64,000 bases of DNA from Bacteroidia bacterium (lineage in GTDB: Bacteria > Bacteroidota > Bacteroidia > B-17B0 > Aurantibacillaceae): positions 124,001 through 188,000 of the forward strand of contig JAEUTN010000014.1 in the NCBI GenBank assembly GCA_016787895.1. Direction: 5' to 3'. This document shows, piece by piece, positions 18,908 to 36,203 of this stretch (the stretch's first letter is position 1; every line of letters begins with the position of its first letter). A program made the translations under genes and the position numbers. Below the pieces are notes generated by a model. It was not told the DNA's origin and made no database searches. It was given only the letters and a program-made list of their open reading frames with translations.

Positions 18908-19353
18908 AACTGCCTGTGTACATTTCCCAGAACCCTAAGGAATTTGAGAAGATTCTCGAATTGCGCTACAACATTTTACGTGCCCCCTGGAATCAAAGTA
19001 AGACATCGGCCACCGACGAAAAAGAAAACGAAGCGTACAATGCCTTTATTTTGTCGCCTGAAGGCAATGTGATTGCCTGCGGACGTTTACAAGAAAATGA
19101 AAACAAAGCAGGACAAATCCGTTACATGGCGGTTGATGACAACTGGCAGGGCAAGGGACTTGGGAAAACGATTTTAGAAGCGCTTGAAAAAAAAGCGAAG
19201 GAGCTGGGATTGCAAAAAATAGAACTTCAAGCCAGAGAAAACGCTTTGGAGTTTTACAAAAACAACAACTACGCTATTGATGAAAAAAGTTTTTTGTTGT
19301 GGGGACAAATCCAGCATTATAAAATGTCCAAAATCCTGAATTCGCAATCTTAA
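18904..19353 (+). CDS. GNAT family N-acetyltransferase
   Basis: The 149-aa protein has the GNAT core: IRYMAVDDNWQGKGLGKTIL carries the acetyl-CoA pyrophosphate-binding Q-x-x-G-x-G motif at about 84-90. It is followed by LQARENALEFYKNNNY, the typical fourth motif with the catalytic-site Tyr. It resembles the small ElaA/PhnO-like acetyltransferases. It overlaps the CoA transferase gene by 4 bp and so is translationally coupled to it. The acceptor amine is unknown. Confidence 0.8.
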   Translation: MKLPVYISQNPKEFEKILELRYNILRAPWNQSKTSATDEKENEAYNAFILSPEGNVIACGRLQENENKAGQIRYMAVDDNWQGKGLGKTILEALEKKAKELGLQKIELQARENALEFYKNNNYAIDEKSFLLWGQIQHYKMSKILNSQS

Positions 19354-19390
19354 ATCCTGAATCTTGAATTGTGAATCTTGAATCTCCCCC

Positions 19391-22509: not shown

Positions 22510-22577
22510 GAGGGGTTTCAGGCCCTGGAAACGAGTCGTCCCAATGCTCCGGGGAGGGCCTGATCAGGAACCCCCTC
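22510..22577. promoter_or_regulatory. two-part stem-loop between lpxH and ilvE
   Basis: The inner stem pairs TCAGGCCCT (22518-22526) with AGGGCCTGA (22555-22563). The outer stem pairs GAGGGG (22510-22515) with CCCCTC (22572-22577), next to repeated CTTTTAA units (22577-22613). On the minus strand it lies after lpxH and before ilvE, so it could be a terminator or a leader structure, or simply a repeat. No T-run follows it. Confidence 0.4.
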
Positions 22578-22619
22578 TTTTAACTTTTAACTTTTAACTT
22601 TGTGCTTTTAACTTTCCTA

Positions 22620-26455: not shown

Positions 26456-26545
26456 GAAACGTGAAGATAGGAGATTTGATCGTCAAACGAGAGTGTGTCT
26501 GGAAAATCTTGTGTGATTCAATCCCGGCACAAAATTAGCAATCAA

Positions 26546-26608
26546 CAATTAGAAATTAGAAATCAGAAATTAGAAATCAGAAATTAGAAATCAGCAATTA
26601 GAAATCAG
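26546..26608. repeat. low-complexity AGAAATTAGAAATC tandem repeat
   Basis: Imperfect units of about 14 bp (TTAGAAATCAGAAA and variants) repeat through this gap. Similar strings occur at about 15029-15056 (inverted) and 37066-37092. No gene is seen here. Confidence 0.75.
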
Positions 26609-26625
26609 TAACCAGAAATGCGACA

Positions 26626-29206: not shown

Positions 29207-29216
29207 TTTCAAGCCC

Positions 29217-29224
29217 CAAAAGTA
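29217..29224 (-). promoter_or_regulatory. -7 promoter box TACTTTTG (gatB)
   Basis: This is an exact TAnnTTTG match on the minus strand, 11 bases before the gatB ATG at 29206. The expected leader would be about 5 bases. Confidence 0.5.
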
Positions 29225-29321
29225 CGGTTTTTTACTGTTTTACAGCTGGCCGGTTTTAAGTTGAAATAAAGCTATTCTCAAAATCATTAAATGGTGGTTT
29301 TGTTTGTTTTGGGCGCCTCCC

Positions 29322-29371
29322 CCATGAAGTAGAAAAACCAAAATTCACATCGGAGGTTTTTCACTTCATGG
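29322..29371. repeat. long inverted repeat CCATGAAGT...ACTTCATGG
   Basis: The left arm is 29322-29339 (CCATGAAGTAGAAAAACC) and the right arm is 29355-29371. They pair over 17 bp with one bulged A and a 15-nt loop. A GC-rich stretch follows immediately. Confidence 0.6.
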
Positions 29372-29408
29372 CGGGCCGGGCTGCTGCGGGCTCGCTGATC
29401 GCTCGGCT

Positions 29409-29440
29409 TTTTTTGTTGAGGCTGCGCCGCCAACAAAAAA
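29409..29440. terminator. hairpin TTTTTTGTTG / CAACAAAAAA
   Basis: A perfect 10-bp stem surrounds a 12-nt GC-rich loop. It could work as a terminator in either direction but follows no known gene end, so it is more likely part of a repeat. Confidence 0.35.
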
Positions 29441-29698
29441 GAGCTAAACCCTACGCATCCCTGGCGCAGCCCCAGTCGTTTAACATTCTCACATTTCTGA
29501 ATACTTTAGCCAATTGTAAAAAGTCAATTCTAAAGCAACCGTCTAATGCACAGGTGGTTCTGTTGTAAATCAATCTCCGAAAATGGCAGAAGAAATCAAA
29601 TCCCCTTCAGCAAACACAGTAGGTATAGGCCTAGGCAAATACAAAAAATTGATTCACTCCTAAACTCTATAAATCCACCGCTAGCTCCCACAGCAAAC

Positions 29699-29940
29699 GA
29701 CCTTCGAAAAATGGCTTAGCATATCTTAGGAAATTTAAAGCGAAGGCATGTGCTAAGCAGGCAGGGCAAATGTGTTAAGACACATTTGAGCCAGCTTGTG
29801 CGCCTGCGAGCATATTTTAGGTTAAGCGTTTATTTTACTTAACCGCACACCTTGCCTGCTGGGAGGGCAAATGTGCTGTGCACATTTGAGCCAGCCGGTG
29901 TGGTAGAGACTTTAGATTTGCAAGCCATTTTTCGGAAGTC
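29699..29940. repeat. 242-bp element with terminal inverted repeats, copy A
   Basis: The ends are GACCTTCGAAAAATGGCTT (29699-29717) and AAGCCATTTTTCGGAAGTC (29922-29940), inverted repeats matching at 17 of 19 positions. Inside are two hairpins sharing GGGCAAATGTG...CACATTTGAGCC (29767-29788 and 29868-29888) and GGTTAAG/CTTAACC around 29820-29843. A copy of identical length lies at 35141-35382, about 93% identical by hand alignment. No coding capacity is seen; it resembles a MITE-like or structured RNA element. Confidence 0.75.
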
Positions 29941-29980
29941 TTGACCTCTTTGGTTCTTTCTGTGTCAAGACAGAAAGAAC
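29940..29980 (+). repeat. CTTGAC-flanked hairpin H1
   Basis: The flank hexamer CTTGAC (29940-29945) is followed by an 11-bp perfect stem GTTCTTTCTGT/ACAGAAAGAAC (29953-29963 with 29970-29980). The 6-nt loop GTCAAG (29964-29969) is the reverse complement of the flank hexamer. Confidence 0.75.
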
Positions 29981-30030
29981 GGACGAGATATTTCAAGGAA
30001 AAACAAGAGAGCGGAAGCCGATCGCTGCGT

Positions 30031-30094
30031 CTTGACTTCTTTGGTTCTTTCGCAGCTAGTGCTGAGCTTGTCGAAGCATCAAGACAGAAAGAAC
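30031..30094 (+). repeat. hairpin H2 carrying a REP-like insertion
   Basis: CTTGAC (30031-30036) precedes stem GTTCTTTC (30044-30051)/GAAAGAAC (30087-30094). The loop is enlarged by a REP-like unit GCTAGTGCTGAGCTTGTCGAAGC (two parts, 30055-30077) before ATCAAG. Compared with H1 the unit looks inserted into the loop. Confidence 0.65.
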
Positions 30095-30139
30095 GGACGA
30101 AATATTGCTCCGTAGATTTTCAGGCCATTTTTCGGAAGT

Positions 30140-30201
30140 CTTGATTTTTTGCTACTTTGGAACTTGTGCTGAGTTTACCGAAGCATCTAAGGAAAAAGTA
30201 G
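30140..30201 (+). repeat. degenerate hairpin H3 carrying a REP-like insertion
   Basis: CTTGAT (30140-30145) precedes stem CTACTTT (30152-30158)/AAAGTAG (30195-30201). The loop contains CTTGTGCTGAGTTTACCGAAG, a relative of the REP-like unit. A stray right-end inverted repeat (30122-30140) lies directly before it. Confidence 0.55.
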
Positions 30202-30242
30202 AAAAAAGAACGTAATTCGGTATTACTAGATACCTTGCAAAG

Positions 30243-31284: not shown

Positions 31285-31762
31285 GTCACGTCGAGTAGCT
31301 GCAGTATAGCAAGAGGGAAGGGCAGCGTATCGAGACGCTGAGGGGGTTATCGCATCACTTCTCGATACGGCCCATTTGGTTTACACAGGGGCCTACTCGA
31401 AGTGACAGGGTTAAATAGTTCTTGTCACGTCGATTAGGGCTGGTTGGCTTTGCGGGTAAAGCCCGTATCGAGACGCTGATGGGGTTATTAAAAATCTCGC
31501 ATCACTTCTCGATACGGCCCATTTGGTTTACACAGGGGCCTACTCGAAGTGACAGGGTTAAATGGTCCTTGTCACGTCGAGTAGGGCTGGTTGGCTCTGC
31601 GGGTAGAGCCCGTATCGAGACGCTGATAGGTTTATTAAAAATCTCGCATCACTTCTCGATACGGCCCATTTGGTTTACACAGGGGCCTACTCGAAGTGAC
31701 AGGGTTAAATAGTCCTTGTCACCTCGAGTAGGGCTAGTTGGCTCTGCGGGTAAAGTCCGACG
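31285..31762. repeat. tandem array of palindromic units of about 147 bp
   Basis: Units start with GTCACGTCGAGTAGG at 31285, 31424, 31571 and 31718 (the last partial), so the periods are 139, 147 and 147 bp. Each unit is palindromic: GTCAC-TCGAGTAGG pairs with CCTACTCGAAGTGAC at its end, and CCCGTATCGAGA pairs with TCTCGATACGG inside. Units 2 and 3 are nearly identical. The TCGAGTA...TATCGAGA pattern recalls REP-like elements common in Bacteroidota. Confidence 0.85.
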
Positions 31763-34653: not shown

Positions 34654-34686
34654 GGTTTTAAAGTTTTATAATGGTTGTTTTATTTT

Positions 34687-34746
34687 AGTACTATTTGGTG
34701 ATGCAAACATACAACGATATTTCAGTACTTTGCCATGCATAGTACT
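34687..34746 (-). promoter_or_regulatory. regulated promoter: -7 box TATGTTTG with three AGTACT sites
   Basis: On the minus strand TATGTTTG (34704-34711) is an exact -7 match for the gene starting at 34653. AGTACT palindromes lie at 34687-34692, 34724-34729 and 34741-34746, flanking the box on both sides; two extend to TAGTACTA. Such an array suggests a repressor operator, with the nearby PadR as a candidate. Confidence 0.4.
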
Positions 34747-34926
34747 AAATATTTTCAATAAATAATCCATATGCTTGATTATCAATTAATTTAAATTTTT
34801 ATTTAACGTTTTTTAGCAAATAAAACACCAGCTCATCTTTCAAATAGGACAAAACACCCCACTCTTAAGGCATGAAAATGCTTTTAAAACAGTTTTTGAA
34901 GTATTTGCTCAACCTTCCTATCAGCT

Positions 34927-35161
34927 AAAGCAAACAAAGAAGGTCTGTGCCGTGCATTTAAAATTGCTGCCATATTCCCTATGCTAAAATCCACCCTTAG
35001 CCCACCCTGCAATCGACCTTCGAAAAATGGCTTAGCAATTAAAATTCGGGACAGCAAACACATAAGGTCCGCGCGTTGGCATTTAAAAATTGCTGAAATA
35101 TTCCTGATGCTAAATTCTACCGCTAGCCCACCCTGCAATCGACCTTCGAAAAATGGCTTAG
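34927..35161 (+). repeat. direct duplication of about 110 bp
   Basis: 34927-35035 and 35052-35161 share the order AGCAAACA...AAGGTC, CATTTAAAA-TTGCTG, ATGCTAAA, TAGCCCACCCTGCAATCGAC and CGAAAAATGGCTTAG, with moderate divergence. Each unit ends in the left inverted repeat of the 242-bp element, so the first unit carries an orphan end at 35015-35033. Confidence 0.65.
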
Positions 35162-35382
35162 TGAATCAAAGGAAATTTACGGCGCCGGCTCGCGCTAAGC
35201 AGGCAGGGCAAATGTGTTAAGACACATTTGAGCCAGCTTGTGCGCCTGCGAGCATATTTTAGGTTAAGCGTTTATTATACTTAACCGCGCACCTTGCCTG
35301 CTGGGAGGGCAAATGTGCTGTGCACATTTGAGCCAGCCGGTGTGGTAGAGACTTTAGATTCACAAGCCATTTTTCGGAAGTC
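35141..35382. repeat. 242-bp element with terminal inverted repeats, copy B
   Basis: It has the same length, ends and orientation as 29699-29940. The left 60 bp has diverged most; the hairpin-rich right 180 bp differs at only about five positions. The conservation of the hairpins against the diverged left part suggests that structure matters. Confidence 0.75.
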
Positions 35383-35422
35383 TTGATTTCTTTGCTACTT
35401 TCTGCATCAAGGCAGAAAGTAG
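35382..35422 (+). repeat. CTTGAT-flanked hairpin H4
   Basis: The flank CTTGAT (35382-35387) precedes an 11-bp perfect stem CTACTTTCTGC/GCAGAAAGTAG (35395-35405 with 35412-35422). The loop is ATCAAG (35406-35411), the reverse complement of the flank. Both stem and flank differ from H1, yet all pairing is kept. Confidence 0.75.
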
Positions 35423-35482
35423 AGAAAAAGATATTATCATCCCAGATATTGTAGTGAGTCTAAATATTTATTAAACGCTTTT

Positions 35483-35576
35483 GCCACTTTTTCTTGACAC
35501 AAAGTGGCGCAAACCCGCCCGACTGAACGTCCTGCCCGACTGCGTCATTCAGGCGGGCGTTCGGGCGGGAGTCAAG
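35483..35576 (-). repeat. hairpin H5 with a displaced GTCAAG flank
   Basis: Stem GCCACTTT (35483-35490)/AAAGTGGC (35501-35508) has loop TTCTTGACAC containing CTTGAC. The complementary flank GTCAAG is at 35571-35576, separated by a GC-rich inverted block (about 35510-35570, GGGCGGG-type) that looks inserted. Confidence 0.6.
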
Positions 35577-35626
35577 ACGCAGCGATTGGTCTTCGCTCCT
35601 TTGTTTTTCCGCGAGATATTTCGTCC

Positions 35627-35664
35627 GTTCTTTTCCCTTGATGGAAAAGAACCAAAAGATCAAG
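35627..35664 (-). repeat. hairpin H6, loop CTTGAT
   Basis: A 10-bp perfect stem GTTCTTTTCC/GGAAAAGAAC (35627-35636 with 35643-35652) has loop CTTGAT (35637-35642) and downstream flank ATCAAG (35659-35664). H5 to H6 is an inverted relative of the H1 to H2 segment, including the intervening GATATTTC and CGCTGCGTCTTGAC-type sequence. Confidence 0.75.
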
Positions 35665-35724
35665 ACTGCATTAAATTCAACAGAAATCTACGGTCGCTTT
35701 GAGCTGCTCCCCGCTAGCTGGCCC

Positions 35725-35743
35725 AAAGGTGCGCTGCACCTTT
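35725..35743. repeat. hairpin AAAGGTGC-GCT-GCACCTTT
   Basis: A perfect 8-bp stem with a 3-nt loop is set in GCCC...GTCC. It has the same architecture as the GGGCAAATGTGC hairpin inside the 242-bp elements but with different arm sequence. Confidence 0.5.
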
Positions 35744-35754
35744 GTCCTAATCAT

Positions 35755-35781
35755 GTCCTGACGCCCTACCGGGCAGAGGAC
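35755..35781. repeat. hairpin GTCCTGACGCCC-TACC-GGGC
   Basis: The arms GTCCT-GCCC and GGGC-AGGAC pair around loop TACC with a small internal mismatch. A relative lies at 35905-35931. Confidence 0.5.
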
Positions 35782-35808
35782 AATGAATTATGGAAATGAT
35801 TACTTTTT

Positions 35809-35849
35809 TTACTTTTTGTCTTGACACAAAAAGTAACAAAAAAGTCAAG
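35809..35849 (-). repeat. hairpin H7, loop CTTGAC
   Basis: An 11-bp perfect stem TTACTTTTTGT/ACAAAAAGTAA (35809-35819 with 35826-35836) has loop CTTGAC (35820-35825) and downstream flank GTCAAG (35844-35849), again the reverse complement of the loop. Confidence 0.75.
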
Positions 35850-35904
35850 GCTTCTGAAAAATTTGCAGAAACCTGCGGAGGGCTTGAGCTGAAGGTTTGA
35901 TCGT

Positions 35905-35931
35905 GTCCTGACACCCTACCGGGGTCAGGAC
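35905..35931. repeat. hairpin GTCCTGAC...GTCAGGAC with TACC loop
   Basis: An 8-bp perfect outer stem (35905-35912 with 35924-35931) and an inner CCC/GGG stem surround loop TACC, with one bulged A. It is closely related to 35755-35781. Confidence 0.55.
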
Positions 35932-36184
35932 AGCAAACCTTCCACGCACAGGCTGCTCGAAAGCATTTGGTTACCTCCATTACTGGCCAATGTTGTGCTT
36001 TCTTCGGCACGCTTTCAAGCCCTCCTTGCTTTCTAAGCAAATTTTTCAAAGGCCGCTTTGCGTGATGGGCTAGCGGTGGATGTTATGATTCTGTAGCATT
36101 AGGTTCAAACGGTAAATACCTGACGAACAGGCATTGCCCTTACTGAATTTTAACAACCCTATCCACTTAGCCCTAAAAAAATCG

Positions 36185-36192
36185 TATCTTCG
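36185..36192 (+). promoter_or_regulatory. candidate -7 box TATCTTCG (terC)
   Basis: It differs from TAnnTTTG by one base and lies 12 bases before the ATG at 36204, giving a short leader. Confidence 0.35.
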
Positions 36193-36203
36193 CCCCTTCA
36201 ATT

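Follow-up and report, generated by a model that had tools for sequence, protein, structure and literature searches.

BOX of Streptococcus pneumoniae is a modular intergenic repeat with a predicted stable fold and no known transposase of its own, and its inner module boxB folds alone and may be missing or repeated with the remainder left undisturbed (PMC3049150). The mobilising enzyme is also unproven for ERIC/IRU and other bacterial MITE-like repeats (PMC2229807), and CGTC REPs, too, have no known transposase (PMC3733652). How ERIC- and BOX-like repeats are mobilised has long been an open question. In yeast mitochondria, mobile hairpin DNAs reportedly insert near or inside other repeats.

Here we analyse two 242-bp repeats in a 64-kb stretch of a Bacteroidota genome (henceforth the window; the source genome is G000). 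We consider it probable that the two copies are small non-autonomous mobile elements of Bacteroidota whose fold is kept and which are recognised, most likely in trans, as a folded strand.

Results

Two 242-bp repeats share a fold that extends beyond their inverted arms

The original prediction placed copies of a structured element at 29699-29940 and 35141-35382, about 93% identical, with differences concentrated at the left and a hairpin-rich part nearly unchanged. Both copies are indeed 242 bp long and 93.4% identical: 12 of the 16 differing positions fall within the first 57 bp, only 2 in positions 58-207, and 2 in the right arm (positions 221 and 222). The latter are compensatory with the left arm, since C22-G222 and A23-U221 in copy 1 are replaced by U22-A222 and G23-C221 in copy 2. 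RNA folding of the copies yields -100.8 and -118.1 kcal/mol (z = -6.4 and -9.8), and the end motif occurs 8 times in the 64-kb window versus 0.42 expected (at most 3 mismatches). The element, here termed A, has no conserved ORF, in line with the expectation that no protein is encoded. Copy 1 is located in the divergent gatB-queG spacer (29213-30242) and copy 2 in a divergent spacer (34654-36203) between a small gene of unassigned family and terC. The features at both loci, including the nested hairpins B and the adjoining hairpin D described below, are as follows.

29699..29940, +: copy 1 of element A, including its two nested B hairpins (CM R1 match, 78.6 bits)
29699..29717, +: outer-stem left arm of copy 1, 89% complementary to 29922-29940
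29764..29808, +: copy 1, nested B hairpin 1 with tail (GGGCAAATGTG..GAGCCAGCTTGTGCGCCTGCG)
29865..29903, +: copy 1, nested B hairpin 2
29922..29940, +: outer-stem right arm of copy 1
29940..29987, +: module D of copy 1 (CTTGAC, linker and hairpin with loop GTCAAG)
30031..30096, +: another D-like hairpin (judged by eye), whose loop contains the palindrome TGCTGAGCTTGTCGAAGCA (30060-30078)
30122..30160, +: solo right end (GGCCATTTTTCGGAAGTCTTGATTTTTTGCTAC)
35015..35140, +: relative consisting of a left end alone (GACCTTCGAAAAATGGCTTAGCAATTAAAATTCG...), lying upstream of copy 2, with the same variant on contig C21
35141..35382, +: copy 2 of element A, including its two nested B hairpins (CM R1 match, 86.2 bits)
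35206..35250, +: copy 2, nested B hairpin 1
35307..35345, +: copy 2, nested B hairpin 2
35382..35429, +: module D of copy 2 (CTTGAT, linker and hairpin with loop ATCAAG)
35849..36054, -: diverged A-like element (GGCCTTTGAAAAATTTGC ... GCAAATTTTTCAGAAGCC), then a D hairpin to about 35810, identified by eye

The covariance model search for A missed the diverged element at 35849..36054 on the minus strand. The palindrome TGCTGAGCTTGTCGAAGCA in the D-like hairpin is another small repeat nested in a larger one.

The arms had been read as 19-bp inverted ends of the element. They are real and 89% complementary, but they are the ends of a helix rather than of the element, because the adjoining 3' hairpin (module D, at 29940-29987 and 35382-35429) and the less conserved left flank are repeated as well; in total, the two loci resemble each other over about 410 bp (29568-29977 versus 35011-35419).

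Other repeats occur in the window. A tandem array between queG and a PspC gene (31350-31759) holds 2.8 copies of a 147-bp unit at 95% matches, with its own palindrome (TACTCGAAGTGAC/GTCACGTCGAGTA), and short arrays with 7-bp (or 14/21-bp) periods lie at 19346-19385, 22577-22615 and 26532-26619 (units AATCTTG, CTTTTAA and AAATTAG). A long minus-strand gene run (38200-63800) has a G+C content of 33-37% versus 41-47% to its left. Since the proteins at its left end resemble, by eye, acyltransferases and an O-antigen ligase, this run is probably a surface polysaccharide cluster.

The 242-bp copies are a basic element A carrying two nested hairpins

The 3.6-Mb source genome, 99.99% complete, contains eight A copies: the two in the window and six further complete ones (two on contig C21, three on C24 and one on C17). 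The original prediction depended on copies elsewhere sharing common ends, and the six do carry the same arms; they lack the inner hairpins and measure 165-168 bp. When aligned to these insert-free copies, the 242-bp copies show two extra blocks, each a GGGCAAATGTG..CACATTTGAGCC hairpin, the first in the internal loop of the inner stem and the second in the junction after it. We conclude that the 242-bp copies are the basic element A carrying two B hairpins. The hairpin predicted to be used twice per copy is thus present, but it is no part of the element itself, belonging to a separate dispersed repeat family, B, that is nested in A.

A covariance model built on eight insert-free copies (six from the source genome and two from the relative G013) comprises 54 pairs, with 98.1% of cells paired and 12 pairs changed on both sides. 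Its covariation score of 0.237, versus 0.101 for shuffled alignments, was not reached in any of 500 shuffles, and covariation is strong for modules A, D and B alike. The outer stem starts with GACC and ends with AGTC, followed by TTGA, and the true ends of the element are not sharply defined.

The eight A copies and the five exact B hairpins of the source genome all lie on the plus strand of their contigs (C24, C21, C17 and C2), and local GC skew at these copies is mostly slightly negative, a possible replication-strand bias. We dropped this bias as an argument, as other genomes are mixed and the stretches short.

A short hairpin with a loop complementary to its 5' neighbour adjoins A

Module D is a second hairpin directly 3' of the A outer stem, preceded by CTTGAN; almost every member has it next to the A right arm. 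The 6 nt of its loop, NTCAAG, complement the CTTGAN through which D is joined to A, and pairing of the loop with this tail would be geometrically plausible. The N pair covaries (T-A in 24 cases, C-G in 4 and A-T in 1), as does the stem, and the 16 distinct instances are 100% paired. The pattern by which these instances were chosen prescribes most of the loop and an almost complete stem, leaving free only the N pair and the identity of stem pairs. By a less selective test, a hairpin with a complementary 6-nt loop follows 25 of 84 GTCTTGAN sites versus none of 364 control sites. All these counts are biased upward, as some loci had been fetched with such a pattern. The linker of D can house unrelated palindromes (in the source genome's own copy C21a, G015_26, G034, G225 and G377); in G225 the palindrome occurs in two of nine copies as a clean 20-nt insertion. 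No consensus terminator was found at the A/D junction.

B is an independent repeat nested in several hosts

B is a GGGCAAA-stem-TTTGAGCCAGC hairpin dispersed in several Bacteroidota families. It stands alone at position 302623 of contig C2 and recurs in numerous species of the genus as well as in other families; in families f6, f7, f21 and f25 (loci L205-L234) it makes up a dispersed family of its own, whose stem covaries almost freely. Among 25 distinct B sequences, 97.8% of all cells are paired and 42 are changed on both sides; five stem pairs are free and do change, whereas the constant frame GGGCAAA...TTTGAGCCAGC was set by the search. B is flanked by GGG...GAGCCAGC with a variable tail, and has a 3' tail AGCnnGTGyG; the tail of the first B hairpin in copy 1 is identical to that on unrelated B copies in other families. 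B also resides inside an unrelated, common CTCTCCTTTGGAGAGG palindrome in f21 genomes and inside the linker of a D-like hairpin in G041. B in unrelated hosts, along with the other palindromes in D linkers, makes B in A one example of nesting at unpaired positions.

A+D recurs across Bacteroidota with a changing stem

We searched samples of 60 or 395 genomes with strict filters, so that the resulting counts are lower bounds. Within the genus, the A model together with the D pattern identified A+D in G009, G013, G015, G024 and G034; in other families it was found in f5, f6, f11, f21, f28, f34, f53 and possibly f54. A+D-like elements are thereby known from about eight Bacteroidia families. Most sampled genomes gave no A+D match, and copy numbers are low, at about 2-10 per carrier genome. 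Among named genomes, the exact right-end pattern marked real elements only in the Prado048 MAG of the same genus (JALOMJ01), on two contigs; in the other named-genome matches the arms were absent. Plasmids and phages gave no match. In viral contigs, the D hairpin was present in none of 120 D-pattern matches and the B stem in none of 13 B-pattern loci, and there is thus no sign of a viral origin.

The outer stem can differ entirely, as in G393, where it reads GACCTAGGAAGCGTTGATTG..CAACGCTTCCTAAGTC with GAC..AGTC and D still kept. It also changes within one genome, G377, which has two stem sequences. At six further places in G377 (L235-L238, L240 and L241), two A+D units, one inverted relative to the other, form a composite, which is complete (about 730 bp) at two of them; the remaining four are truncated at contig ends or only partly aligned. 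The composite is non-coding, with a conserved spacer of about 190 bp between the units and further outer inverted ends near TAATAATTTGTTACAATTGATTG. Tandem A+D copies are found in G104.

Syntenic sites in relatives are empty

Mobility is well supported by comparison with relatives. At one convergent gene pair, the spacer is 454 bp with A+D in G000 and 30 bp in the syntenic G009; at a second, it is 459 bp in G000 and 29 bp in G009, and in G034 the element is absent and the genes overlap. The terC spacer measures 1.55 kb in G000 versus about 200 bp in G009, and the block is absent in G034 too. In G013, the flanks of the gatB-queG spacer are shared, but inside there is only a left end and other sequence. 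The short spacers at syntenic sites indicate insertion. Gain rather than loss would account for the three sites; this reading draws on two relatives that lack the element at two of them and on a single relative at the remaining one.

Two companions of a classical transposon had been proposed as checks, target-site duplications and an autonomous transposon with the same ends. No consistent duplication was evident in the G000, G377 or G225 copies, whose ends are not sharply defined, and no such transposon occurs in the 99.99%-complete source genome, where all end matches are A copies or solo ends. Neither transposition nor an excision product nor a responsible enzyme was observed.

Alternative explanations

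The same observations bear on several other origins. A classical MITE, that is a deletion derivative of a DDE transposon moved by sequence-specific recognition of terminal inverted repeats, would be non-coding, long-armed, dispersed in spacers and missing from relatives, as A is. That part of the MITE-like prediction which called the element non-autonomous, protein-less, mobile and strongly structured is borne out by insertion polymorphism and covariation. The classical form with terminal inverted repeats is improbable, though: the arms are internal, flanked by the repeated D and left flank, they vary by compensation between genomes and within G377, no insertion sequence in G000 has the same ends, and no consistent target duplication was seen. 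The hairpins with conserved flanks, the compensatory stems and the clustered or inverted arrangements also recall REP/BIME-type elements moved by a RAYT (Y1) transposase, and Y1 genes are common in the class. Yet neither A nor a true B adjoins any of the 30 Y1 loci that were fetched (one degenerate pattern match, L083), and G015 and G024 carry A+D at 99% completeness without a Y1 match, which makes a Y1/RAYT enzyme unlikely; as the constant GTAG/CGTC tag is missing too, we give this origin very little credence.

A structured non-coding RNA or cis-regulatory element (3' UTR stabiliser, attenuator or terminator), kept in several copies for the benefit of the host, would explain the strong RNA folding and covariation, for fold conservation could equally reflect an RNA role, and it would suit the U-rich stretch after the outer stem and the position of several copies soon after stop codons (C24_222, C24_226, G013_125 and G015_31). 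It is nonetheless unlikely, if less so than the two preceding origins, given that there is no constant gene partner or orientation (four of the eight G000 copies lie in divergent spacers, and some copies in relatives are antisense to their neighbours), that syntenic sites in relatives lack the element, that no Rfam family matches, and that tandem and inverted clusters occur. Least credible of all is that the window's pair is a single segmental duplication with incidental arms. The two copies, 5.4 kb apart, do have the same nested arrangement, and their similarity continues for about 130 bp upstream; but six other copies on three contigs have the same arms without the hairpins, arm changes are compensatory, and similarity ends within about 410 bp, so that the family did not arise by duplication of a larger unit, a possibility the original prediction had raised against itself. 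A local copying event may nonetheless be common to the close pair.

Discussion

Mobile elements kept in shape and probably recognised as a folded strand are thus the reading we prefer. The basic unit would be a long-armed hairpin A of 130-200 nt joined directly to the short hairpin D via CTTGAN, non-coding and intergenic, and most likely recognised and moved in trans by a host-encoded enzyme. Because recognition by sequence fails to explain arms that are fully changed and yet still paired, we infer that the form recognised is a folded strand, which could be DNA that is single-stranded during replication or, possibly, an RNA copy. B-type short hairpins would insert into unpaired junctions and linkers, leaving the fold of A intact.

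More tentatively, and with the balance tipping against it, A+D might be the substrate of a transposition system that reads the folded strand by architecture alone, a long plus a short hairpin, the loop of the latter being able to pair with CTTGAN. If so, the stem sequence would be free to drift completely, and the single-stranded gaps of A+D would be landing sites for other hairpin repeats. Integron attC sites are read by shape, somewhat as A+D would be here; attC and retron-like readings were considered because of the paired ends, and attC-type end boxes were not seen in A+D. In single genomes, and across several bacterial families too, the sequence of A+D changes and its shape stays, and this separation of shape from sequence makes structure-based recognition directly testable.

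The family is widespread in Bacteroidota and apparently undescribed. A search of the window region against Rfam brought up nothing relevant even at E<=5, 12 loci gave no match at gathering score, and no description was found in the literature searched, which took in few subscription journals. A+D and B work like ERIC, BOX or REP repeats. The family departs from defining features of MITEs and REPs on which it was compared, and its likeness to BOX is one of structure only.

With bacterial MITEs, including ERIC/IRU, element A shares small size (165-168 bp, or 242 bp with inserts), lack of a protein, a long hairpin pairing the 5' and 3' ends and insertion polymorphism, with empty syntenic sites in G009 and G034 (PMC2229807). 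Unlike them, its arms are internal rather than at the element's ends, its outer stem lacks 5'-TA-3' termini (the true ends being uncertain), G000 holds no autonomous insertion sequence with matching ends, and A is accompanied by a constant second hairpin, D, whose loop complements the sequence on its 5' side (PMC2229807). No target duplication is evident at element ends that are not sharply defined. B resembles GTAG/CGTC REPs in being a short hairpin with fixed flanks, compensatory stem changes and moderate copy number, but it has no constant tag at one hairpin end, no adjoining RAYT gene (30 Y1 loci; G015 and G024 without a Y1 match) and a 3' tail of its own, AGCnnGTGyG, and A is far longer than a REP (PMC3733652). 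BOX is alike in organisation, being modular and intergenic with an independently folding inner module and no transposase of its own known (PMC3049150). It differs in that boxB forms a tandem module within BOX, whereas B stands as an independent repeat in unrelated contexts, and in that A+D outer stems differ completely between genomes. The mobile hairpins of yeast mitochondria, organellar and unrelated in sequence, offer an analogy only. Independent hairpins nested at unpaired positions in A+D also show a way in which small repeats can add up to large structured intergenic ones.
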